Assembly: GCF_014838715.1 (NCBI RefSeq)
Contig: NZ_CP061947.1
Coordinates: forward strand, 62,001 to 126,000
DNA from: Algoriphagus sp. Y33
GTDB lineage: Bacteria > Bacteroidota > Bacteroidia > Cytophagales > Cyclobacteriaceae
Direction of reading: 5' to 3'
Length of the DNA: 64,000 nt
Notes under the pieces: generated by a model
Told to the model about the DNA's origin: nothing
Databases searched by the model: none
The model's input: the letters and a program-made list of their open reading frames with translations, nothing else
Translations under genes and position numbers: made by a program
Shown here: piece by piece, positions 45,888-59,241 of the stretch
How the letters are laid out: every line of letters starts with the position of its first letter
Position numbering within the stretch: position 1 is the first letter of the stretch

Positions 45888-47957
45888 ATGACAAATTTCA
45901 CCTACGCCAACCGTGATCTCAGTTGGTTGTCTTTCAACAAGCAAGTACTCTGCGAAGCGTTGGCAGAAGAGATTCCGCTAAGAGAGAGAATTAATTTTTT
46001 GGCAATTTTTTCATCCAATTTAGATGAGTTTTACAGAGTGCGATACCCCGTGGTCCAGTTTTTAGCCCAATCTCCGACAGGATCCAACGAGGAATTTAAC
46101 CCCTGTGAGATCAAGGAGAAGGTAGACCGTGAGATTGCCGACCATCAAGCTTTGATGGGAAAAATCCTCCGAAAAATTAGGGCTGCAATTAAAAAGGAAG
46201 GTATTGAATGGATCTATGATAAGAAGATCCCCGATATGCTCAAAAGGGAACTGGCCGATTTCTTTACACATGAAGTAATGGGGAAGCTTCATATTATTGA
46301 AGGACTGTCCTCCACTTCTATAGAAGTATTTGCTCCCAATAGCAAAGTGTTCATGGTATTTAGTCATCCTGACAAGAAACAGAAAACGCTATTTATTCCG
46401 CTTCCCACTCCTGTTATTCCCAGGTTTTTGACTTTTAAGAAAGGTGAAAAAAAGTATGTGGTTTTCTTGGAGGATTTGATAAAGCACGAATTGATAAAAT
46501 ATCGTCCTGAGCTGGAAGGTTGCCAAGCCTATACATTTAAAGTCAACCGAAATGCTGAAATGAATTTGGAGGAAGAAGTGGCTACCGGACTTTCCAAACG
46601 GTTGAAGAAAGAAATCAAGCGCAGAGAATTCGGCAGTCCTACTAGATTGCTTTACCAAAAAGGCATGCCTGAGTTCCTGTTAGATGAAATTCAGCAGTTG
46701 TTTCGTCTGGAGACGGTGAATATGGTGGAGGGAGGTGCGTATCATCAGTTACAGGATCTTTTTGGGTTTCCGCTTGATGCCAATCCTTCGGATCACTGGA
46801 GGATAATTGAGCCGGAGATGGGAAGTGGGGTTTACTTTTTGGATGAGATTTTTAAAAGAGATATTCTGATCCATCCTCCTTACCATTCTTTTTCGCCGGT
46901 TTTGCGCTTGTTTAATGAGGCAGCCATCCATCCGGAGGTGTATGAAATCAATCTGACCATCTATAGGGTAGCCAAAGATTCCAAAATCCTGCAAGCCCTG
47001 ATTACCGCTGCTCAAAATGGAAAAAAAGTGACTGTTTTTGTAGAGCTCAAGGCTAGATTTGATGAGGAAAATAATCTGAATTGGGCCGAAAAAATGAAGG
47101 CTGTAGGTGTTCGGATCAAATACAGCATACCCAAACTCAAAGTTCATGCGAAGGCAGCACTTATTAAACTCAAGAAGGCAGGGAAAATTCAAAAAATCGC
47201 ACTTCTGGGAACAGGAAACTTCAACGAATCCACTGCAAAAGTCTATACTGACCATTTCTTGTTTACCGGCGATCCCCTGATCTGCAGAGAGCTGGAGGAC
47301 GTATTTAAGATACTTGCCAAAAGCCCAAAAAAGCCCAAAAAAGAGGAAATGGATTTTTCCATACTCTGGGTAGGCAAATTCAATCTCAAGGAACAACTTC
47401 TGAAAATGATTCAAAGTGAAACCCAAGAAGCACTGTTGGGAGGAAAAGCTGAGATTTTTCTTAAAATGAATAACTTGGAAGAAGAGGATGTCATCGGGGC
47501 GTTGTATCAAGCTTCCCAAAGTGGCGTGAAGATTAGACTTTTAATTCGGGGGATCTGCAGGTTGATTCCCGGGATAAAGGGACAAAGCGAGGGGATCACG
47601 GTGAAGCGTATTGTGGATCATTACCTAGAGCACGGAAGAATCTTTTCTTTTTTTTCCAAAGGAAAGCATGTGGTATACATCGGGTCGGCTGATTGGATGG
47701 ACCGAAATCTTAACCGTAGAATAGAAGTGTGTTTTCCCATCCGGGATGAGCGTCTTAAGTCTGAGATCTCCACCATGCTCGAATTGCAATGGAATGACAA
47801 CAGAAAAGCCCATACATTCCCCATCACGAATCAAGTTCTTCCATTAAATCCGCTTCGCTCTCAGGCCGAAATCTGTTCCTTCTTGCTAGAGAATTCTCAC
47901 GTTTTAGCGAATAGCGAGCGTTTTGAAACCCGGATTAGACGCAAGGAGGTGAAGTGA
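45888..47957 (+). CDS. ppk1: Polyphosphate kinase 1
   Basis: Makes polyphosphate from ATP and can run in reverse. The 689-residue protein opens with YANRDLSWLSFNKQVLCEA and ERINFLAIFSSNLDEFYRVR, both diagnostic of PPK1. The catalytic half carries the two conserved His in KLKVHAKAALIKLK (about 420) and VDHYLEHGRIFSFF (about 581), with the phospholipase-D-like blocks LLGTGNFNESTAKVYTDH and VVYIGSADWMDRNLNRRIE. It lies upstream of, but 785 bases from, a phosphate-ester acquisition-like locus and is on the same strand. No polyphosphatase gene is adjacent. Confidence 0.95.
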   Translation: MTNFTYANRDLSWLSFNKQVLCEALAEEIPLRERINFLAIFSSNLDEFYRVRYPVVQFLAQSPTGSNEEFNPCEIKEKVDREIADHQALMGKILRKIRAAIKKEGIEWIYDKKIPDMLKRELADFFTHEVMGKLHIIEGLSSTSIEVFAPNSKVFMVFSHPDKKQKTLFIPLPTPVIPRFLTFKKGEKKYVVFLEDLIKHELIKYRPELEGCQAYTFKVNRNAEMNLEEEVATGLSKRLKKEIKRREFGSPTRLLYQKGMPEFLLDEIQQLFRLETVNMVEGGAYHQLQDLFGFPLDANPSDHWRIIEPEMGSGVYFLDEIFKRDILIHPPYHSFSPVLRLFNEAAIHPEVYEINLTIYRVAKDSKILQALITAAQNGKKVTVFVELKARFDEENNLNWAEKMKAVGVRIKYSIPKLKVHAKAALIKLKKAGKIQKIALLGTGNFNESTAKVYTDHFLFTGDPLICRELEDVFKILAKSPKKPKKEEMDFSILWVGKFNLKEQLLKMIQSETQEALLGGKAEIFLKMNNLEEEDVIGALYQASQSGVKIRLLIRGICRLIPGIKGQSEGITVKRIVDHYLEHGRIFSFFSKGKHVVYIGSADWMDRNLNRRIEVCFPIRDERLKSEISTMLELQWNDNRKAHTFPITNQVLPLNPLRSQAEICSFLLENSHVLANSERFETRIRRKEVK

Positions 47958-48741: not shown

Positions 48742-51700
48742 ATGAGTCCAAGATGCTTTATTTTTTTCACCCTTTTTTTATCCGCTTTACCCTTTTCGAT
48801 CTCCCAAGCCCAAAAACTTAAATTCAGAACGTATCTAGTAGAAGATGGGCTCTCAAATAATTCTGTAAACCTTCTGGCCAATGATCCTTCCGGTGCAATT
48901 TGGATTGGCACCTGGAATGGGTTGAATCTATATGACGGCAAGACGTTTCTGGTTTTTCGCCACCACCCCAGTGATCCGAAAAGCCTCCCCGGCAATTATA
49001 TCTATGGAGTGGAGATAGATAAAGATGAAAGGGTCTGGGTATGGTCAGACCCGAAAATCCTCAGTTTATTCCATTCTGACAGCACTTTTTCCCATTACAA
49101 ATTTGAGAATAGAATTGATGGGATTTTCCTTACTAGTCAAAACCAATTGGCGGTTCAGGTGGTTGATTCCCTTTTCGTTTATGATGATGATAGCGATAGA
49201 TTCCAGGTGTGTTTGTCCTGTGCTCCCAAGGAGATATTTCCCGATATCCCTATTCCGGCAGCTATCTCCCAACTGAGCTTATGGGATTCAAAAAAAGATA
49301 AAAGGGGGAATATCTGGTATGGAAGCAAGGATCAAGGGCTGTTCTTCCAGCCCTATCATGTGAAGTCAGGTGAGCCTTACCTTGAACATTACATATCAGA
49401 CGCCTTCCACCCTTATGGACTTAGAAGCAATGAGGTCACCGCTATATTGGAAGATCATTTCGGGAACGTTTGGCTAGGCCTGAAGGACGGAGGAGTAGCC
49501 AGAGCATTGAGGCATACCGATGTGGTCAGCCATGTCTACACGCATCCCAAAACCCACCCCAACTTACCTAGTGAAGCTGTAAGGGCTGTGGCGGAAGAGT
49601 CTGATGGCACATTATGGATTGGCTATTATAATTCTGGAATTTATTTCAGAAGACTCGGAGAGAATAGTTTTGAAAAGCTGGAAATTCCTTCTTCCCATTC
49701 CGGTTCTGACTGGAACAGAATCAGAAGTCTCTATGTGGATCAGACTGGGATGGTATGGGTTGGCACCTATGCAGGAGTGATTAGGATCAGGAATAAGAAG
49801 GTAGCAGAATTGGTGGAAGAGGATAATACGAAATTCTTCTACAGGCGCATATATGGATTTGCGGAAGACAAGCAGTCCAAAAAGCTATGGCTGGGTTCCT
49901 GGAATGGCGTGTCGCTATATAATCAGGAGAAGCAAAGCTTTGAGAGTTTTAGAGGTCAGGATCAGTTGGAAGGATTGAATATAAGGACATTGTTTTATAC
50001 GGATAGCACCTTGTACATATGCACAGAAAAGCATGGTGTAGTGCTATTTAAAGATGGAGAGATCACATTCTTTGATCGGTCAAAAGGGCTATTGGATAAC
50101 AGTGTCTATACGATTTTGAAGGAAGAGGAGACCGACAGGCTATGGATAGGCACACATAGTGGACTGACACTATGGGATCCCAAGACGGACAAGATCTCCT
50201 ACATCACCGAGCAGGAAGGCTTGATGAGCAATTTTATTTACGGAATGCTGTCTCATGCCAACAGCATTTGGGTGAGCACCGCCAAAGGAATAGCGAGAAT
50301 CAACAAGGAAACACTGGAAGTTTGGGCATTGGATCCGGAAGAAGGATGGCAGTCCTCGGAATTCTCTGAGGGAGCTTATTTTAAGAATGGAAGAGGGCTG
50401 ATGTATTTTGGCGGAGTGAATGGACTTAATAGTTTTCATCCGAATGATTTGCGCTCGGAGATTGCTGTCCCCAGAATCCTGATTTCTCAGCAGGATATTG
50501 AAAGCAGTTCTGTCAATTCGGCCTCTTTTTCTATTTCGGTGATTGGATTTGGAATAGATCCCAATAACCGGATACTTTACCGGGTTTTGCCGGGAGACAC
50601 AGAGTGGAGCGAATTGGATCAGAACGGTTTCTTGCAGTTGTCTGGGCTATCTGAGGGGGTACACAAATTGGAAGTGAAAAATTCCCTTGGGAGACCCGGG
50701 GAAGTTTTGTCCACAGAATTCACTGTTTTGATCCCCTTGTGGAAGAAGCCGTTGTTTTATTTTTTTGCGATCATTTTTGTCTTGGGAGTGTCTGGCTGGT
50801 GGAGATTCAGAACAGTGAAAAAAATCCAAAGAACACTGGAACTTAAGATTCAGGATAGAACCAAGGTGATTTCCAGACAGAAGTCTGATCTCGAAAATGC
50901 AAATAAGGTGCTTGAAGCAAAAAACAGGGAAATAGAAGAGCAGAAAGCCCGATTGCAGATTCTTCACAGTAAGCATCAGAATGCCGGTTTTGAAATGGAG
51001 AAGTTTACCGGCTATGTGGTGGATCAAATCAGGAAACCGTTATCCGATCTGAAATTAAGTATAGAAAGCGCCACATTCAGAGATCAAAAGCTTAAAAATG
51101 GTATCAGGCTTCAACTGGATAGCGTAATGGAATTGTTCAGTGAGCTAAATGGGTCACGCAAATTAATGGAGCTTGGGGAGGTAACTCCTTCATTGACCAT
51201 TCTTCCGGATCTGTTTCTGCATCTGAACCAAGAAATGTCGGGAGCATTGAAGGAGAACAGTATCCAATACAAATACAGCGAGAATCTATCAAGAGGTTGG
51301 GTTTCGCTGGATGTGATGAGGCTCAAACTTTTTCTTCAAAACCTTTTTAAGGAAATCCTCAAGTTTCAGGATGAAGATGCCGTGTTGGATGTTCAGGTGA
51401 AAACATCGGAGGGCAACTTACTTATTCTGGTGGATACCAGTAGTTCTACCTTAATGGATGCGATAGAAACATTCAGCCAATACAGTATATATATACAATC
51501 CGCCAAAAACCTGTTGACAGAGTTGTCAGGGGAAATGCAAATTTTGCCGAATGAAGTATCAGTAGCGATTCGGGTTCAAATTCCAATTCAGGAAATTGAG
51601 ACAAAAAACCTAAATACATCGGTCAAGAATTGGAAGCATATGGCTCTGGCTGATGAAATTCCGGAAGGGAAAAAGGTTGTTCTGATCTTTGGTAAGCGTT

Positions 51701-52443
51701 TTGAGGCCGATGGTTTGGTCAAGGTAATGGAAGAGGATTCCTTGTTTTTTATACAAGAGGATGACCCGGATATGGTGTCTTCAGCGCTGAATACCATAAG
51801 AGTTGACCTGCTGATCCTGTATAATGAAAAGGTCACAGAGAATGTGGCTAAGATCATCAGTGCGGCGAATCTATTCCCTACACTTCCGATTTTGTTCATG
51901 TATGAAATCCTCTCCTACGGGCAGCAGGAAAGATTACTGGATATGGGGATCAAAGATTTCATCCAATTGCCTACAGGAAAATCCCTGCTAAGCAGAAAAA
52001 TCAAAAGTTTGCTTGCGGAAAGTATCGATAAGGATCAACCCTTGAAACTGGAAAGCATATTGTCGCAGGATGAGCCAAAAGTAGATCTGAGCCCAAATGA
52101 AAAACTAGTCAGGGAGGCCATCCACCATATCAAACTGAATTTTGATAAGCCCTCTTTCAAGGTAGAAACTCTGTATGGGCATTTGGGTGTTTCTAAAATC
52201 AAACTCTATAGGATTTTTAAGGATATTCTTCATCTGGCTCCCTCTGATGTCATCCAGCAACTTCGGATGGAAAAGGCGAATACACTTCTTCAAAAAAGCC
52301 AGATGAATGTGGGCGAAGTAAGTTTTGCCTGCGGTTTCAATGACCCCAAACACTTCAGTAAGGTTTTTAAGAAACACTATGGCTACAGTCCAAAGAGGTT
52401 TCAAAAAATGGACGAGACAGTGAATCAGTCAGGTGTAGAATAA
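48742..52443 (+). CDS. HTCS-like sensor-regulator with degenerate kinase and receiver
   Basis: A 1233-residue membrane regulator. Order: signal peptide (1-23); two-component regulator propeller repeats (about 25-580, e.g. AIWIGTWNGLNLYDG, GNVWLGLKDGGVARA, RLWIGTHSGLTLWDP); Y_Y_Y domain (about 590-660); one membrane helix (about 670-690); coiled linker; kinase-like segment; receiver-like segment (about 975-1090); intact AraC-type HTH (about 1118-1225, LGVSKIKLYRIFKDI, VGEVSFACGFNDPKHFSKVF). The H-box reads VVDQIRKPL, with Asp where ISHEFRTPL has His. N- and G-boxes are not recognisable. The receiver has DLLILYNEK in place of the DLIISDVMMP pattern, and DFIQLP lacks the KP Lys. Phosphotransfer is therefore improbable. 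It sits 241 bases before susC and likely controls that operon. ATG at 48742 preferred over TTG at 48736. Confidence 0.88.
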   Translation: MSPRCFIFFTLFLSALPFSISQAQKLKFRTYLVEDGLSNNSVNLLANDPSGAIWIGTWNGLNLYDGKTFLVFRHHPSDPKSLPGNYIYGVEIDKDERVWVWSDPKILSLFHSDSTFSHYKFENRIDGIFLTSQNQLAVQVVDSLFVYDDDSDRFQVCLSCAPKEIFPDIPIPAAISQLSLWDSKKDKRGNIWYGSKDQGLFFQPYHVKSGEPYLEHYISDAFHPYGLRSNEVTAILEDHFGNVWLGLKDGGVARALRHTDVVSHVYTHPKTHPNLPSEAVRAVAEESDGTLWIGYYNSGIYFRRLGENSFEKLEIPSSHSGSDWNRIRSLYVDQTGMVWVGTYAGVIRIRNKKVAELVEEDNTKFFYRRIYGFAEDKQSKKLWLGSWNGVSLYNQEKQSFESFRGQDQLEGLNIRTLFYTDSTLYICTEKHGVVLFKDGEITFFDRSKGLLDNSVYTILKEEETDRLWIGTHSGLTLWDPKTDKISYITEQEGLMSNFIYGMLSHANSIWVSTAKGIARINKETLEVWALDPEEGWQSSEFSEGAYFKNGRGLMYFGGVNGLNSFHPNDLRSEIAVPRILISQQDIESSSVNSASFSISVIGFGIDPNNRILYRVLPGDTEWSELDQNGFLQLSGLSEGVHKLEVKNSLGRPGEVLSTEFTVLIPLWKKPLFYFFAIIFVLGVSGWWRFRTVKKIQRTLELKIQDRTKVISRQKSDLENANKVLEAKNREIEEQKARLQILHSKHQNAGFEMEKFTGYVVDQIRKPLSDLKLSIESATFRDQKLKNGIRLQLDSVMELFSELNGSRKLMELGEVTPSLTILPDLFLHLNQEMSGALKENSIQYKYSENLSRGWVSLDVMRLKLFLQNLFKEILKFQDEDAVLDVQVKTSEGNLLILVDTSSSTLMDAIETFSQYSIYIQSAKNLLTELSGEMQILPNEVSVAIRVQIPIQEIETKNLNTSVKNWKHMALADEIPEGKKVVLIFGKRFEADGLVKVMEEDSLFFIQEDDPDMVSSALNTIRVDLLILYNEKVTENVAKIISAANLFPTLPILFMYEILSYGQQERLLDMGIKDFIQLPTGKSLLSRKIKSLLAESIDKDQPLKLESILSQDEPKVDLSPNEKLVREAIHHIKLNFDKPSFKVETLYGHLGVSKIKLYRIFKDILHLAPSDVIQQLRMEKANTLLQKSQMNVGEVSFACGFNDPKHFSKVFKKHYGYSPKRFQKMDETVNQSGVE

Positions 52444-52684
52444 CAAATTCATTCAAACTTACTTTTTATACTTTTTTCAATCTACTGATTAGATCCTCGG
52501 GTAGCCTCAGGATTAATCTTGATTTAAGCCTTCATTAAGGCATTGTTGTTGAAATAAAAGTAGATAAATAAGGTCTTACCAGTACTAGTTTCTGTAACAT
52601 TTCACCTCTTTATTGAAACAAAACCACTCCAAAACTCCCCTAGGGTTCTTCAAATTTGTTTGAACCAAAAATTTTAATCATTCT
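52444..52684 (+). promoter_or_regulatory. Upstream region of the susC operon
   Basis: This 241-bp interval between the sensor-regulator and susC must contain the susC promoter and probably the AraC-domain binding site. I see CCTTCATTAAGG (imperfect palindrome near 52530) but no convincing TAnnTTTG element. Confidence 0.35.
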
Positions 52685-55600
52685 ATGAAATCAAAACTTT
52701 ACTGCTTATTCCTTTTGTACATTCTGTCAGGAGGCGGGCTTTATGCGCAACATGTTTTGAAGGGGGTGGTAGTCGGGAAGGCGGACAAGGTCCCTTTTCC
52801 CGGAGCTACGGTGATTGCCAATGGCGATACCTACAAAGGCACTGTCACGGATACCAATGGTGAATTCTCGCTCAATCTTGCTCAGGAAAGCGGAGTAGTT
52901 ACCATATCTTTTATAGGAATGGAAACTATAACAGTGCCTTATCAGGCCTCTGTCGTTTTGAGAGTAGAGATGGCAGAAGAGACTAACTCTCTGGATGAGG
53001 TAGTGGTTATTGGTTATGGTACTGCTAAACGAAGTAATTTGACTACTTCTGTAGCTTCGCTGGAAAATGTCTCCAGAACTGTGGACAGGCCTATTTCCAG
53101 TCCTCAGGACATGCTTCAGGGACAGGTGGCAGGTGTGAGTGTAGTATCCAATTCTGGAGACCCGGGGTCCACTCCCAGTGTGATAATCCGCGGCAGAGGG
53201 ACATTCAACAATGAAGAGCCACTATATGTAGTGGATGGAATGCCTTATTACGGTTCCAGAATAAATCCCAACGACATCGAAAGCATGGTGGTGCTGAAGG
53301 ACGCTGCAGCGGCAGCTATCTATGGAGCCCAAGCAGCTTCCGGTGTCATTGTAATTACTACTAAGAGTGGCAAGTCCGGAGCGCCAAAAGTTTCTTTGGA
53401 TTTCTATCAAGGATGGCAGTCAGCCTACAAGACTCCGGAAGCATTAAATGCTGCTGAATATGCCCAAGTTTATACACAGGCTGCCATACATGCCGGAGCT
53501 ACTCCGAATCCTGCCCATGATCCCAATGTCAACCCGTGGGGTCAGGTGACCAGAACCAATTGGATGGATGAAATTTTTAGGACAGGGGCTATTACAAACG
53601 CCAACGTTCAAGTAAGTGGGGGAAGCGATAGAGCTAGATACAGTACGTCTTTCGGATACCACAAAAAAGAAGGATTATTGTTGAATACGGATTACGAGTT
53701 GTTTTCTCTTCGACTGAAAGGAGACTACGAAATCACCAACAAGTTCAGAGTAGGACAAAATGTGTACTTGAACCACTCGGCTGCCTATGGGGCGAATACC
53801 AGCAGTAGCTACAGCGGGGCCATTATCAATGCGATCTATATGAATCCTGCCGCACCTGTATATGATGAACAGGGGCAGTTTCACGGGACAGTGCCTTTTG
53901 AGCTTTCACAGTTTGCCGGAGCCTATGGAGATACTTACAACCCTGTTTCCCTGTTGCTTCGCCCAACCAGAAAGGCTCCTAAATTGAATGTGAATGCCAT
54001 CACCTATGCCGAGTATGATATTTTGGAAGACCTGACGTTCAAATCAAGTTTTTCCCTTGACTTGTGGGATTGGAGTGACCGTACGTTCTCGCCACGGGCT
54101 CCTGAAATCGGTCGTCCAAGCAACATGAACTATCTGGATCAGAGTGCAGGAAGCTCTACCCGATGGATTTGGGATCAGCAACTTAACTATAATAAAAGCT
54201 TTGGTAAACATAATGTCGGTCTTACTGCTGTTTATACGGCTCAGTTCAGAAAGGAAGAGTCTCATAGCTTTACCGTTCAGGATTTTGACAGGGAAGACGA
54301 TTGGTTCCAGTATCCCGGAAATGCCAATACAATTCTCAACGTGCCAAATTATACTGCTTTTGAGGATGCCTTGACTTCTGCTATAGGAAGAGCAACCTAC
54401 GACTTTGATGATAGGTATTTTATCATGGGAAGTATCAGACGTGATCAGACATCTCGGTTGGCTCCCTCCAAAAGGACTGATTTTTTTCCGGCAGTATCAG
54501 GGGCTTGGAAGATTTCTTCTGAATCCTTCTTTCAAAGCAACTTGATAGATCTGTTGAAGCTACGGGCTTCCTGGGGTCAGATAGGCAATATTTCCTCAGT
54601 GGGATATTATGCCTTTAATGTGCCCTTGTCAGCGGGTAATGATGTTATCCTGGGCGAACCTGGAGTTAGAAACAGACATGTTTCTCTGAATGAGATGACT
54701 AACGCCAATCTTAAATGGGAAAGGTCAGAAACCTTGAATTTCGGTCTTGATGCAGCCTTGTTGAACAACAAGTTGCAGTTTACTGCTGAATACTATGAAA
54801 AATACACCCGCGGGTTGATTTTGAGAAATTCACCTGATCCCCATTCTGGAGTACCGACAGGTGCGCTCTCTAATGTGGGGACAGTTTCGAATAAGGGATT
54901 GGAAATGTCTCTTAATTATTCGGGAAATGCAGGTGAATTGTCCTACCAAGTTGGTGGAAACTTCTCAACAATTAAGAATGAATTGGTTGATTTGGATGAG
55001 TTTACCAATGATTTTATTCAACATGAAGACAACATCAGGACATCTGTGTATCCATTCAGAAGTGAGTCGGGCCAGCCACTGTATTCTTACCATTTGATCC
55101 CCAACACTGGCATCTTCCAAAATCAGGAGCAGATCGATTCTTACCTCAGCAGTGATGGGGAGAAAATACAGCCAAATGCTAGACCGGGTGATCTGATATT
55201 CCAAGATGTAAACGGGGATGGCAGAATCAGCGATTCGGATAGGGTATTTATGGGCAATGCCATGCCTGATTTCACTTATGGAATCAATATTTCTTTGGAA
55301 TACAAGAAATTCGATCTGATGCTCTTCGGACAGGGAGTAAGTGGAGTGGAGCTGTTTAACGGCTACAAACATACCGCTTACAATGCAGGACTTCAGGGAT
55401 ACAACCTGGACAGAAGAGTGTTGGATGCTTGGACTCCCCAAAATCCAAATGCCTCGATCCCGGTATTGTCTACACAGGATCCAAACGGCAATTTTGGCAC
55501 AGCCTCAGACTGGTACCTCGAAAGCGGTGATTATTTCAGAATCAAGAACATTTCGTTAGGGTACACTTTTGCATTGGATCAATGGAAAACGGGCTCTCAA

Positions 55601-55747
55601 GTGAGGCTATACGGATCTGCTGAAAATCTGGTGACGTTCACCAAATACTCAGGTCTAGACCCTGAAGTGGGATCAGGTAAGGTCATTGACAATGGCGTAT
55701 TCCCCTCTCCAAGAACCTTTACCATCGGATTTAATATGAATTTCTAA
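52685..55747 (+). CDS. SusC/RagA-family TonB-linked outer membrane transporter
   Basis: A 1020-residue transporter. A signal peptide (1-21) precedes a CarboxypepD_reg-like domain (about 22-100, GATVIANGDTYKGTVTDTNG). The family-specific motif is NSLDEVVVIGYGTAKRSNLT, followed by a plug with ISSPQDMLQGQVAGVSVVS and RGRGTFNNEEPLYVVDGMPY, and SMVVLKDAAAAAIYGAQAAS closes it. A 22-strand barrel ends RTFTIGFNMNF. It pairs with the SusD gene 18 bases downstream. SusC proteins import ligands captured by SusD; substrate is not readable from this sequence. Neighbouring phosphatase fusion, and the absence of a glycoside hydrolase or transporter nearby, point to a phosphorus compound. Confidence 0.94.
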   Translation: MKSKLYCLFLLYILSGGGLYAQHVLKGVVVGKADKVPFPGATVIANGDTYKGTVTDTNGEFSLNLAQESGVVTISFIGMETITVPYQASVVLRVEMAEETNSLDEVVVIGYGTAKRSNLTTSVASLENVSRTVDRPISSPQDMLQGQVAGVSVVSNSGDPGSTPSVIIRGRGTFNNEEPLYVVDGMPYYGSRINPNDIESMVVLKDAAAAAIYGAQAASGVIVITTKSGKSGAPKVSLDFYQGWQSAYKTPEALNAAEYAQVYTQAAIHAGATPNPAHDPNVNPWGQVTRTNWMDEIFRTGAITNANVQVSGGSDRARYSTSFGYHKKEGLLLNTDYELFSLRLKGDYEITNKFRVGQNVYLNHSAAYGANTSSSYSGAIINAIYMNPAAPVYDEQGQFHGTVPFELSQFAGAYGDTYNPVSLLLRPTRKAPKLNVNAITYAEYDILEDLTFKSSFSLDLWDWSDRTFSPRAPEIGRPSNMNYLDQSAGSSTRWIWDQQLNYNKSFGKHNVGLTAVYTAQFRKEESHSFTVQDFDREDDWFQYPGNANTILNVPNYTAFEDALTSAIGRATYDFDDRYFIMGSIRRDQTSRLAPSKRTDFFPAVSGAWKISSESFFQSNLIDLLKLRASWGQIGNISSVGYYAFNVPLSAGNDVILGEPGVRNRHVSLNEMTNANLKWERSETLNFGLDAALLNNKLQFTAEYYEKYTRGLILRNSPDPHSGVPTGALSNVGTVSNKGLEMSLNYSGNAGELSYQVGGNFSTIKNELVDLDEFTNDFIQHEDNIRTSVYPFRSESGQPLYSYHLIPNTGIFQNQEQIDSYLSSDGEKIQPNARPGDLIFQDVNGDGRISDSDRVFMGNAMPDFTYGINISLEYKKFDLMLFGQGVSGVELFNGYKHTAYNAGLQGYNLDRRVLDAWTPQNPNASIPVLSTQDPNGNFGTASDWYLESGDYFRIKNISLGYTFALDQWKTGSQVRLYGSAENLVTFTKYSGLDPEVGSGKVIDNGVFPSPRTFTIGFNMNF

Positions 55748-55765
55748 TCCATTATCAGCACTATC

Positions 55766-57319
55766 ATGAAATTAAGAATATATACATTAATAATGGCCCT
55801 TCTGGTGATGGGGTCATGCAGTGATGATTTCACTGACCTTACACCTTTGGGAAATGTAACCACGGGCAATTTCTGGCAAACTGAAGAAGATGCCATTACC
55901 GCTTCAAACGGACTCTACCAACACTGGGATGATGATGACTTGTTTGGAAGGGGAATTATGTACCTGATCGCAGCATGTGATGATTTTCATCAGGGAAGAA
56001 ATGATGCAGCTGCTGCGGCCATCAGGAATTTTCAGGCAACGGGGCAAGAGGGAAGGATAGCCAACATTTATCCTAAAATGTACACAGTCATCCAGCGTGC
56101 CAATACAATTCTCCGGTATGTTCCCGAGATGAACATCGATGCCTCAGTGAAAAACAGAGTGCTGGGAGAAGCATACTTTGCCAGGGCACATGCTTATTTT
56201 TGGTTGGCGCCAAGATTCGGTGACCATAGAGCAGGAATTCCCATCGTGACGGTTGAGAACATGGATGAAACCAACTTTACAAGGCCGTCTCATGTAATCG
56301 AAAATTATACCTTAATGGAGCAGGATTTGAAACAGGCAGCGGAGTTATTGCCATATCTCACAGAATATGCTTCTTCTGATCTTGGCAGGGCGCACAAGGA
56401 TGCCGCCCATGCTTATCTGGCCAAAACCTATTTGCTATGGGCTCAATATGACGAAAGCAAATGGGCAGATGTGGTGACCTATTCAGATTTGGTTATAAAT
56501 TCTCCTTCGGGAAGATCCCTGATTAATACAGGTAACCCTGCTGAGGATTTTGCCTCGGTTTTCTATGTAGAGAATAATTTTTCTTCAGAGTATATATTTT
56601 CAACAGTCTCAAGCAATGAGCGGGGACAGATTCTTCCAGGAGTAATGCTTGAAAACACAGGATGGGGACTGTATAATGGTTGGGGTACATTTTCTCCTAC
56701 CTTAGAGTTGTATAATGCGTTTGAAGATGGGGATCAACGAAAGAAAGCGACTCTTTTGGAGTTTGGAGATACATTTGAGTTTTTGGGCAATGCCAGAAGG
56801 TATTATTCAGGTAACTCATGGACGGGTATTCAGGTAAATAAATACATGCAACCCTATAGAACTCCTGAGTCAGTACATCTAAATCCCAATGGAAACTATC
56901 CCACCACTAATCTGAATATCCCTCTGATCAGGTTTGCTGAAGTTCTTTTGATGAAATCTGAAGCACTAATCATGATGGGACAGAATGGTGATGCACCTCT
57001 AAACCTGGTACGCCAAAGGGCAGGATTGACCCCTATATCAGGAGCTACCCTTGCAGATCTTAAGCAGGAAAGAAGGGTAGAACTTGCTGCTGAATATGCT
57101 GACAGGCATCTGGATTTGGTGAGATGGGGCGACGCACAGGCGGCTTATGCCAAGCCGGCAACGGGAAGAAATCATGCGGAGAAAACCAATCCGGATTCAG
57201 GATTTGAAGTATATGAAACCTGGCCTGCCAGAAATTTCAATCCCGCTATTCATCACGTTTGGCCGATTCCTCCGAATACAATTGCTATTTCCGGGATTTC
57301 ACAAAATGAAGGGTGGTAA
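55766..57319 (+). CDS. SusD/RagB-family surface nutrient-binding lipoprotein
   Basis: A 517-residue lipoprotein (LLVMGSCSDDF, lipobox Cys about 18) with SusD architecture. The N-terminal TPR-like region holds NFWQTEEDAITASNGLYQHW, VIQRANTILRYVPEM and VLGEAYFARAHAYFWLAPRF. A middle ligand-lid region follows, and the C-terminal SusD signature is LIRFAEVLLMKSEALIMMG followed by NLVRQRAGLTPISGATLADL, RRVELAAEYADRHLDLVRWG and HHVWPIPPNTIAISG. It starts 18 bases after susC and is followed by a strong hairpin, then by the phosphatase fusion gene. It forms the lid of the SusC barrel on the cell surface. Confidence 0.94.
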   Translation: MKLRIYTLIMALLVMGSCSDDFTDLTPLGNVTTGNFWQTEEDAITASNGLYQHWDDDDLFGRGIMYLIAACDDFHQGRNDAAAAAIRNFQATGQEGRIANIYPKMYTVIQRANTILRYVPEMNIDASVKNRVLGEAYFARAHAYFWLAPRFGDHRAGIPIVTVENMDETNFTRPSHVIENYTLMEQDLKQAAELLPYLTEYASSDLGRAHKDAAHAYLAKTYLLWAQYDESKWADVVTYSDLVINSPSGRSLINTGNPAEDFASVFYVENNFSSEYIFSTVSSNERGQILPGVMLENTGWGLYNGWGTFSPTLELYNAFEDGDQRKKATLLEFGDTFEFLGNARRYYSGNSWTGIQVNKYMQPYRTPESVHLNPNGNYPTTNLNIPLIRFAEVLLMKSEALIMMGQNGDAPLNLVRQRAGLTPISGATLADLKQERRVELAAEYADRHLDLVRWGDAQAAYAKPATGRNHAEKTNPDSGFEVYETWPARNFNPAIHHVWPIPPNTIAISGISQNEGW

Positions 57320-57393: not shown

Positions 57394-59241
57394 ATGTATT
57401 CGAATGCCTTTTCATGGAAGCCTTTGCTTCTGCTCAGTTTATCCTGTTTAGTTTCAGTTTTTGCCTTTGGCCAGCAGTCAAAAATCCACAGCCACAATGA
57501 CTATCTCAGAAAGGTGCCCTTTTGGGAAGCTTATGCCAATGGCTGTGCCTCCATAGAAGTAGATGTACTGCTGGTTTCAGAGAAACTTTTTGTGGCACAT
57601 GAACAGGAAAGTATTCATCAAGCCAGAACCATTGAAAATCTTTATCTCCAACCGATCCGGCAAGGTTTGCAAACAGGCTTGATTGCGAAGCCTTTGTCAT
57701 TTTTCCTAACTGTAGATATCAAATCTGAGCCATATGAGACACTGAAGCAGTTAATGAAAAGTGTGATGCCTTACCAAGATATAATGTATAGCGCACAGCA
57801 TGAAAATGGGTTGAAACTTGTTGTTTCGGGCAACAGGCCACTTCCGCAGGAGTATGGTGATTTTCCTGAATACATCTTTTTTGACCATCAGGAGTTAACT
57901 GATCTGGAGACAATTCCGTTGGACAAAGTCGCTATGGTCAGTCTGCCCTTTGACCGCTATTCCCAATGGGGAGGCAAAGGAAGAATGGTGGAAGAAGAAC
58001 TTAATGCTGTCAAGCAAGCCGTCGAGAAGGTACATCAGGCAGGAAAGCCGATTCGCTTTTGGGCTAATCCGGATTCTAAATCATCTTGGAAAGCACTCTA
58101 TGATATAGGAGTGGATTTCATCAATTCAGATAAACCTTTTGAAATAAACAGTTACCTGACAAGCTTGGATCAACGATATGTTGGAAGCTCCATCAGAAGC
58201 GAGATTTTGGAATTGAACTTCGAAAACGATGAAGTGCTGAGGCAGGTAGACAATGTTATCCTAATGATAGGTGACGGGAACGGCTTGGCCCATATTTCCG
58301 CAGGCATGTATGCCAATGGAAATGCACTGAACATGACCAGCCTCAAGAATGTGGGGTTGGCAAAAACTCAGTCTGCTGATGATTTTACAACGGATTCGGC
58401 TGCCGGAGGAACGGCATTGGCCACAGGCAACAAGGCAAACAACAGGGGCGTAGGTTTGGATAGCTTGGAGAACAAAGTAGAAAGCCTGGTGCATATCTTG
58501 TCAGAAATGGGCTTTGGAACCGGTATTATCAGTACTGATCATATCACCGGTGCTACTCCTGCCACTTTTTATGCACATCAGAAAGATAGGGATATGATTG
58601 GGCAGATTACTCAGGATTTATATGGAAGTAGCTTGAATCTATTTATAGGAGCAGGAAAAAATGATTTCCTCAGATATCAAAATCATGCCTTGGATAGTCT
58701 TATGGCCAATGGATTTAGCCTGATGGGAAGTCTGGATCAAGTGGCGGGCTCTACAGAGGGGAAAGTTGGATATTTTGCTTCAAACCACGGTCTGCCAAGT
58801 ATTGAAAAAGGGAGAACGGGATTTTTAAAACACAGTACTGAGGCTGCAATCAGCTATTTGGAAAACAAGGGGACTCCGTTTTTCCTAATGGTGGAAAATG
58901 GCCATATCGATGTAGGAGGGCATATCAATGATGCCAGAACTGTGGTGGAGGAAGTCATTGACTTCGATCAGGCAGTGGCTGCAGCATTGAAATTTGCCTC
59001 CGAAAATCCCAATACGCTTGTAGTCATCACAGCCGATCATGAGACGGGCGGTGTGACCATACCACAGGGCAGTCTTGCCAATGGGGAGGTTGAGCTGGAA
59101 TTTTCTACGGAGGACCACACCGGAATTATGGTTCCTGTCTTCGCTTTTGGTCCCCATTCCAAATCCTTCTCGGGTGTTTATGAAAACACGGAAGTGTTTG
59201 AGAAAATCATGACGGCTCTTATGATGTATCATTCGAAATAG
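57394..59241 (+). CDS. Secreted PI-PLC/GDPD-like domain fused to alkaline phosphatase
   Basis: A 615-residue exported protein joining two phosphoesterase modules. After the signal peptide (1-27) the first module (about 30-255) is PI-PLC/GDPD-like: His34 in IHSHNDYLRK, Glu55-x-Asp57 in CASIEVDVLLV and His69 in LFVAHEQ, followed by FFLTVDIK. The second module (about 285-612) is an alkaline phosphatase: Asp in VILMIGDGNGLAH, nucleophile Ser in FTTDSAAGGTALATGNKANN (about 335), ENGHIDVGGHINDA, VITADHETGG and FSTEDHTGIMVPVFAFGP supply metal ligands. It could open a phosphodiester and then release phosphate from the product. It lies 74 bases after susD with an intervening hairpin. Substrate is inferred. 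Confidence 0.9.
   Translation: MYSNAFSWKPLLLLSLSCLVSVFAFGQQSKIHSHNDYLRKVPFWEAYANGCASIEVDVLLVSEKLFVAHEQESIHQARTIENLYLQPIRQGLQTGLIAKPLSFFLTVDIKSEPYETLKQLMKSVMPYQDIMYSAQHENGLKLVVSGNRPLPQEYGDFPEYIFFDHQELTDLETIPLDKVAMVSLPFDRYSQWGGKGRMVEEELNAVKQAVEKVHQAGKPIRFWANPDSKSSWKALYDIGVDFINSDKPFEINSYLTSLDQRYVGSSIRSEILELNFENDEVLRQVDNVILMIGDGNGLAHISAGMYANGNALNMTSLKNVGLAKTQSADDFTTDSAAGGTALATGNKANNRGVGLDSLENKVESLVHILSEMGFGTGIISTDHITGATPATFYAHQKDRDMIGQITQDLYGSSLNLFIGAGKNDFLRYQNHALDSLMANGFSLMGSLDQVAGSTEGKVGYFASNHGLPSIEKGRTGFLKHSTEAAISYLENKGTPFFLMVENGHIDVGGHINDARTVVEEVIDFDQAVAAALKFASENPNTLVVITADHETGGVTIPQGSLANGEVELEFSTEDHTGIMVPVFAFGPHSKSFSGVYENTEVFEKIMTALMMYHSK

Follow-up and report, generated by a model that had tools for sequence, protein, structure and literature searches.

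The window analyzed here is a stretch of 64,000 nucleotides from Algoriphagus sp. Y33 (contig NZ_CP061947.1, positions 62,001 to 126,000), whose genome is one contig of 6.38 Mb. On its forward strand, directly ahead of genes for a SusC/SusD pair and a phosphatase, lies a gene for a membrane-spanning AraC-type regulator that appears to descend from a hybrid two-component system (HTCS). Its open reading frame (ORF), 48742-52443, is unbroken and encodes 1233 amino acids (aa) from an ATG at 48742; the program-listed ORF begins at TTG 48736. The protein divides as follows.

48742..52443, +, HTCS-derived regulator, 1233 aa, intact ORF
48742..48810, +, signal peptide-like N-terminus, residues 1-23 (hydropathy; boundary by eye)
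48811..50511, +, periplasmic beta-propeller of Reg_prop repeats, residues 24-590, approximate boundaries (Pfam E 8.6e-28)
50512..50739, +, Y_Y_Y-like domain, residues 591-666, weak (Pfam E 0.093)
50740..50811, +, transmembrane helix, about residues 667-690 (hydropathy)
50812..50988, +, long linker, probably helical, the helix being predicted from sequence ((E/D)RT Arg to DHp Pro, 60 residues)
50989..51177, +, DHp-like segment with Asp in place of the phospho-acceptor His (residue columns, hhalign)
51178..51627, +, ATPase (CA)-like segment without N-, G1-, F- or G2-box (residue columns, hhalign)
51628..52041, +, pseudo-receiver, with Tyr for the acceptor Asp, Leu for the Lys and Gly-Lys for the acidic pair (columns, hhalign)
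52084..52413, +, AraC-type DNA-binding domain, HTH_18 (Pfam E 1.3e-21)

The order of periplasmic Reg_prop propeller, transmembrane helix and C-terminal AraC helix-turn-helix (HTH) domain is that of an HTCS, with transmembrane region and DNA-binding domain on one chain (hydropathy, Pfam). Pfam matches in the regulator are to Reg_prop (five stretches), HTH_18 (above cut-off) and HTH_AraC, and over the propeller the family profile matches the solved HTCS sensor domains 4a2l and 3v9f. An earlier note on this DNA had described a regulator with propeller, membrane helix and intact AraC HTH, which holds; the Y_Y_Y domain that it also named is clear in some relatives (L050, E 2.3e-9) but stays below the Pfam cut-off in the window protein. 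A Pfam scan of the regulator for HisKA, HATPase_c and Response_reg gave no match even at E<=1. Among 42 relatives the kinase and receiver models match none at E<=0.01, as against 29/29 canonical HTCS, a set picked for carrying these domains and hence a positive control only. The sole faint NCBIfam kinase trace is PmrB over residues 681-900 (E 2.2e-6), whose 26.6 bits fall far short of the cut-off of 314. Since these Pfam models match 0/42 members, the family is easily taken for plain AraC regulators.

Origin of the cytoplasmic domains and their missing residues

The cytoplasmic part is about 540 aa long, and 493 columns of it align in order with canonical HTCS in a profile-profile comparison (42 versus 29 rows, E 1.9e-47). 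Because the HTH carries most of that score, the comparison was split by domain. With the HTH excluded, the DHp, CA and receiver (REC) segments together still match canonical HTCS (hhalign P 3.4e-13), and domain by domain P is 9.3e-5 for DHp (26 columns), 2.1e-7 for CA and 3.7e-7 for REC. Reversed profiles used as controls gave P 0.0089-0.26, and mismatched pairings gave 0.17 (REC versus CA) and 0.1 (CA versus REC). Against PDB, the HTH-less segment profile finds WalK/VicK-type kinases (E 9.3e-6) and the receiver of 12aw (E 2e-4), an HTCS receiver-AraC chain that reaches E 1.3e-35 against the family profile when the HTH is included. The proposal that the protein evolved from an HTCS is thus upheld with negative controls, and it is well supported by these comparisons that the cytoplasmic part comes from the DHp, ATPase and receiver domains of an HTCS. 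As judged from profile comparison only, the kinase and receiver folds may persist.

Residues were counted in 152 family members (window included), 47 canonical HTCS and the five HTCS of the same genome. The family set came from two protein searches with cytoplasmic regions, and comprises 32 among 79 matches (the others being canonical HTCS) plus the 120 listed of 126, the 6 unlisted matches being left out of the counts. Several of the 152 rows are fragments, P0115 and P0182 lack the HTH, and the match lists annotate a kinase or receiver Pfam domain for none of them. The acceptor His is present in 1/152 family members, the N-box Asn in 0/152 and the receiver Lys in 0/152 (Leu 146, Met 5, gap 1); each is present in 47/47 canonical and 5/5 own-genome HTCS. 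The acceptor Asp, likewise found in 47/47 and 5/5, is replaced by Tyr in 150/152 family members in an ungapped register. GxGxG/DxGxG occurs in the ATPase segment of 46/47 canonical HTCS and 0/152 family members; no member has a Gly in the G1 or G2 column, and the stretch that starts at the N-box Lys and closes the ATPase domain measures 72-75 residues in the family but 89-116 in canonical HTCS.

In the window protein the relevant motifs are VVDQIRKPL (within 50989-51042), LLILVDTSSSTL (51418-51453), VDLLILYNEK (51802-51831) and DFIQLP (51955-51972), with Tyr (then Asn) at the receiver acceptor and Leu at the Lys position. The earlier note read the first as Asp in place of the His with an Arg-x-Pro-Leu end retained. 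The Asp is there in the window, but it is one of several substitutes in the family (A 65, S 56, G 9, N 7, Asp 4 of 152); the Pro is retained in 149/152 members, while the Arg of that end is Gln in 122/152. Its other observations, that N-box and G-box are missing, that Tyr stands for the receiver Asp and that the KP motif is lost, extend to the family, the receiver reading being sure only to within one residue. The global alignment's acceptor Asp column was dropped, as beta-strand 3 is gapped wrongly there, and the Tyr column was counted in the ungapped register; the hhalign register moves the acceptor site one residue on, to Gln 114, Asn 34 and Asp 1 of 152.

A phosphorelay using residues at other positions was considered and rejected on the family-wide column counts for His, N-box Asn, G-box, Asp and Lys; any His within eight columns of the acceptor site is found in 7/152 members. 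The single member with a His at the acceptor site, P0006 (AHKIRKPI), has Lys for the following Glu, no N-box Asn and no G-box. With His, ATP site, acceptor Asp and Lys gone, a phosphorelay within the chain is not expected. The S/CHIP contact His is present in 6/152 family members as against 45/47 canonical HTCS; this contact keeps the HTCS DNA-binding domain silent (excerpts of PMC11253607). Judged by these columns, the on-switch and the off-switch of the HTCS both seem to have been replaced in the family.

Distribution, age and constraint of the family

A genome scan found 42 regulator loci, in Algoriphagus, Echinicola, Lunatimonas, Lunatibacter, Tenacibaculum, Cellulophaga, Zobellia, Flavobacterium, Polaribacter, Ochrovirga, Maribacter, Wenyingzhuangia, Sinomicrobium and other Flavobacteriaceae. 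The family therefore spans Cytophagia and Flavobacteriia (class checked for Algoriphagus and Zobellia). It is sparse: strong matches (E<1e-100) occur in 4/72 genomes of the window's genus, its own included, and although 56/72 match at E<=0.001, all apart from these four are weak and partial. The window's order has strong matches in 4/390 genomes (E<1e-99, four candidates scored per genome), and the window's family has the regulator in 12/295 (E<=1e-30).

In a quick tree of 35/152 family rows, 40/47 canonical HTCS and the five own-genome HTCS, the family falls on one side of a single branch (SH-aLRT 100) and has a long stem. Within it, a split with supports of 89-90 separates 13 rows, the named ones Cyclobacteriaceae, from 22 rows, the named ones Flavobacteriaceae. 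Between the window and L031, the ratio of nonsynonymous to synonymous rates (dN/dS) is 0.110 for the propeller, 0.137 for DHp, 0.117 for CA, 0.071 for REC and 0.091 for the HTH, and no domain exceeds 0.35 where defined in the 14 least-diverged of 67 pairs above 70% identity. (L059 and L071 were excluded from dN/dS, and the broken L059 from the genome-locus alignment A3.) In 152/152 members the (E/D)RT Arg stands 60 residues from the DHp Pro column, and the membrane-proximal Trp stands 99 or 102 from the Pro, compared with 50-130 in 46 canonical HTCS; as the canonical set is more diverse, this constancy would be support, not proof.

By tree and substitution rates, then, the residue loss is old and under purifying selection. 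The losses recur family-wide (n=152), with no set of orthologues that has intact residues, and the absence of recent decay that the earlier note had assumed is borne out by one supported clade that spans two classes and by the low dN/dS of the dead domains. An old single clade, low dN/dS and a fixed linker length together imply that the dead domains are kept for something. The regulator ORF is full-length in 40/42 loci. L059 (Wenyingzhuangia) and L071 (Flavobacterium hibisci) have it split or shortened, which would reflect either loss of the gene or an error in sequencing; behind it, the ORFs for SusC, a SusD-size protein and the phosphatase remain open. One HTCS of the window's own genome, L084 (C1:3535500-3541500), is also apparently split, into frames of 375 and 1013 aa.

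The neighboring cassette and the repeats before susC

Three genes follow the regulator in the window.

52685..55747, +, SusC/RagA-type TonB-dependent transporter (TIGR04056 E 1.4e-250)
55766..57319, +, SusD-type lipoprotein (Pfam SusD_RagB E 3.6e-28)
57394..59241, +, fusion of GDPD_2 and alkaline phosphatase (Pfam; PDB match to alkaline phosphatases)

The GDPD_2 part scores 24.5 bits, slightly under the cut-off of 27, and 29.1 bits in another scan. A SusCD-like pair beside phosphatase/phosphodiesterase genes is the layout of a phosphate utilization system (PUS), and PUSII of F. johnsoniae has a SusCD pair and a PhoA1 with the same Pfam pair, PF00245 and PF13653; it differs in having a FecR-like regulator and induction by phosphate depletion, where the window has an HTCS-derived regulator before susC (excerpts of PMC8115612). 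A polyphosphate kinase 1 gene lies two genes upstream of the regulator, at 45888-47957; F. johnsoniae PUSIII includes a polyphosphate kinase-like gene (excerpts of PMC8115612).

The arrangement is conserved, with susC directly downstream of the regulator in 38/42 loci and a relative of the fusion phosphatase at most five genes away in 36/42 (loci L073-L079, with short flanks, were left out of the synteny count). Single loci add metallophosphoesterases, a GDPD or a GH92; the GH92 mannosidase that adjoins the cassette in L043 (18608-20884) would fit phosphomannan as one substrate. Within the genus, SusD (E<=1e-60) is present in exactly the 4/72 genomes that have the regulator (hypergeometric 9.7e-7), and within the window's family a SusD match accompanies the regulator in 12/12 regulator genomes among 295 (4.2e-14), statistics that are overstated because the genomes are related. 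These scans scored 6 and 5 candidates per genome. At the regulator loci a second type of SusC occurs as well, and the SusD that goes with it gives a weak score or none when compared with the window's SusD.

Four Lunatimonas/Lunatibacter loci have no cassette beside the regulator, and in 4/4 of these genomes it lies elsewhere. The neighbors of the regulator there are a 505-aa protein without a Pfam match, weak IolO/IolG-like enzymes, a short-chain dehydrogenase/reductase and a major facilitator superfamily carrier. A move of this regulator into an inositol operon was considered and rejected, the neighbors being only weakly IolO/IolG-like and the cassette being located elsewhere. At ~1700 bits, the SusC of these unlinked cassettes (L134-L137) is nearer to the window's than are the SusC proteins of all linked loci but L031, which suggests rearrangement or transfer. 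The window's own genome has a second cluster, L128 (C1:3049000-3063000), in which a fusion phosphatase relative and a SusC relative accompany a 581-aa ORF; no HTCS-type regulator is found in that cluster, and no upstream array before the genes scored.

The stretch between regulator and susC is conserved across loci and holds two kinds of repeat.

52512..52548, +, four RTTA-like boxes with an 11-bp period, an imperfect copy (ATTA, TTTA, ATTA, GTTG)
52594..52608, +, first copy of a GnAACA-type direct repeat with a 21-bp period, candidate AraC operator
52615..52630, +, second copy of this repeat, candidate AraC operator

The direct repeat, of the type GAAACAAAA at 21 bp, emerged with no preset motif from 41 upstream regions, whose best 16-mer self-identity is 11.02 against 8.31 when shuffled. 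Self-similarity in these regions peaks at 11, 21, 22 and 43 bp (the short L034 region was excluded), and the 21-bp spacing presumably resembles that of AraC half-sites. The array of four RTTA boxes lies mostly ~170 bp before susC, with a mean score of 14.18 at period 11, while the remaining periods between 8 and 14 score 9.5-10.3. It reaches p<=0.01 against shuffles in 35/39 regions, L031, L033, L034 and L051 falling short, although the regions scored were also those in which the box had been picked out by eye, and the shuffles used for both repeats, as for the PhoX genes below, preserve single-base content only. Array and repeats also precede the relocated susC in 3/4 Lunatimonas-type genomes (array p 0, 0 and 0.03); the susC start in the fourth is not clear-cut.

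The 11-bp array, we assume, resembles PhoB sites, and it may be a Pho-type array. In its favor, a PhoX gene of the window's own genome (L115/L129) has a similar RTTA-like array 191 bp before its start (score 13.5; four boxes p 0/300 in one test and 0.005 in another). Two other PhoX genes have a perfect box pair (p 0.01; four boxes p 0.15) and no array, respectively, and in four Flavobacteriia genomes the pattern at no more than one mismatch occurs about as often as its reversed control in three (11 versus 14, 5 versus 7, 12 versus 11) and more often in the fourth (8 versus 2).

Proposed mechanism, alternatives and known systems

We consider it probable (roughly 0.7) that the regulator is a transmembrane one-component activator evolved from an HTCS, which senses a ligand of the adjoining SusCD/phosphatase system and signals by a change of shape. 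The periplasmic propeller, probably a dimer, would sense a ligand handled by the neighboring SusCD/phosphodiesterase-phosphatase system, probably an organic phosphate ester. The shape change would run through the membrane helix and the fixed-length linker into the dead DHp/ATPase/receiver stack, acting as dimer scaffold and lever, so that the paired AraC domains could bind the direct repeats upstream of susC and switch on susC, susD and the phosphatase gene. We infer conformational signaling from the loss of the phosphotransfer residues, and a shape change along a fixed-length linker into a dimer frame would be its simplest account. The class of ligand, the dimer, the pairing of protein and site, and activation rather than repression are likewise put forward as the likely arrangement.

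Several observations weigh against this mechanism or its premises. The receiver is only partly stripped: its second acidic position is Asp in 102/152 members and the Thr site keeps Ser/Thr in 120/152, and 5/42 rows of A3 have an Asp directly after the Tyr, the acceptor site in the hhalign register. The DHp match taken alone is weak, the weakest of the domains at 26 columns. With the S/CHIP contact lost, the off state must be held by other means. As to the link with the cassette, one of the 12 co-occurrences (G525) is a 35% SusD match, 16/28 SusD-bearing genomes of the window's family have no regulator match, and two of these regulator-less genomes, G502 and G522, carry SusD at 82% and 79% identity.

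A bolder version of the proposal, tentative and with the odds against it, is that the whole phosphorelay became a mechanical relay, in a family across classes whose kinase, ATPase and receiver folds would survive only as stiff lever and dimer frame for the sensing of phosphate esters, and that the reworked receiver pocket (Tyr, Leu) reads a cytoplasmic ligand, so that outside substrate and inside phosphate state would be integrated. In an unlikely alternative, the old receiver or ATP pocket of the dead domains would take up a small molecule from the cytoplasm (phosphate, nucleotide or sugar phosphate), and the regulator would combine periplasmic and cytoplasmic signals. The old active site has indeed fixed new residues (Tyr 150/152; Leu/Met at the Lys position 151/152), and pseudo-receivers are known to bind ligands (excerpts of PMC12632262). 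However, the surroundings of the site vary by clade, the second acidic position holding Asp, Lys or Glu and the Thr site Ser or Tyr, and the glycine-box part of the ATPase domain is shorter by some 15-40 residues.

It is decidedly unlikely that the regulator sits permanently on its operator without switching by sensing, with output tracking its own level or the Pho system. The silencing S/CHIP contact of excerpts of PMC11253607 is gone, as this would have it, an 11-bp array lies upstream with a similar one before the own-genome PhoX, and in F. johnsoniae phosphate depletion induces a cassette that has this type of phosphatase (excerpts of PMC8115612). Yet the propeller is constrained like the rest (dN/dS 0.110), which would be needless if it sensed nothing, the linker length is fixed, and the four-box pattern has no clear enrichment in 3/4 genomes. 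Highly improbable is phosphorylation in trans, by another kinase or with a canonical HTCS partner as donor: the genome has five HTCS with intact kinase and receiver residues, and most members of the family retain one acidic residue and the Ser/Thr in the receiver, but the receiver Lys is in none and the acceptor Asp is missing in nearly all. Finally, a decaying single copy (pseudogene) is refuted, since a broken or shortened ORF in 2/42 loci (L059, L071) stands against full length in 40/42, one old clade and low dN/dS in the dead domains.

The one-component activator that we favor can be set beside several known systems. With the HTCS named in excerpts of PMC11253607 (BT1754, BT4663, BT4124) it has in common the domain order, the propeller sensor and the descent of the cytoplasmic domains; it differs in that the family lacks the acceptor His, the ATP site, the receiver Asp and Lys and the S/CHIP contact, and has a shortened ATPase domain. 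One B. thetaiotaomicron HTCS, BT4236, has Gln for the acceptor His and a non-consensus contact motif, and its authors suggested a phosphorylation-independent mechanism; this is a single protein in a discussion, likened to the regulator by description, not by sequence (excerpts of PMC11253607).

Transmembrane transcription regulators (TTRs) such as ToxR, CadC and TfoS resemble the regulator as membrane-anchored chains that run from periplasmic sensor to DNA-binding domain with no phosphotransfer. The JGI name 'chitin signaling transcriptional activator' we take to be TfoS. Unlike TTRs, TfoS possibly excepted, the family still holds conserved kinase and receiver remains, and a TTR survey has floated the evolution of TTRs from two-component systems (excerpts of PMC10269533). 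In its working the regulator would be TTR-like, in its descent an HTCS, and by its residues not a functional one. Aspartate-less or pseudo-receivers (RitR, HP1043, NblR; excerpts of PMC4395418 and PMC12632262) are likewise receivers without the acceptor Asp in transcription regulators, but the pseudo-receiver here is joined in one chain to a dead kinase and a periplasmic sensor of its own. The main text of the review PMC12632262 mentions neither HTCS nor AraC, and searches of open-licence PMC papers, as judged from the entries listed, showed no description of this regulator family.

The family documents, with good support, one way in which a two-component system can give rise to a one-component transmembrane regulator, and it lets one ask directly whether HTCS-type chains can reach their AraC domains without phosphoryl transfer. 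It also supplies a likely regulator and a candidate operator for a cassette that occurs in many genera of Bacteroidota and probably takes up organic phosphate.

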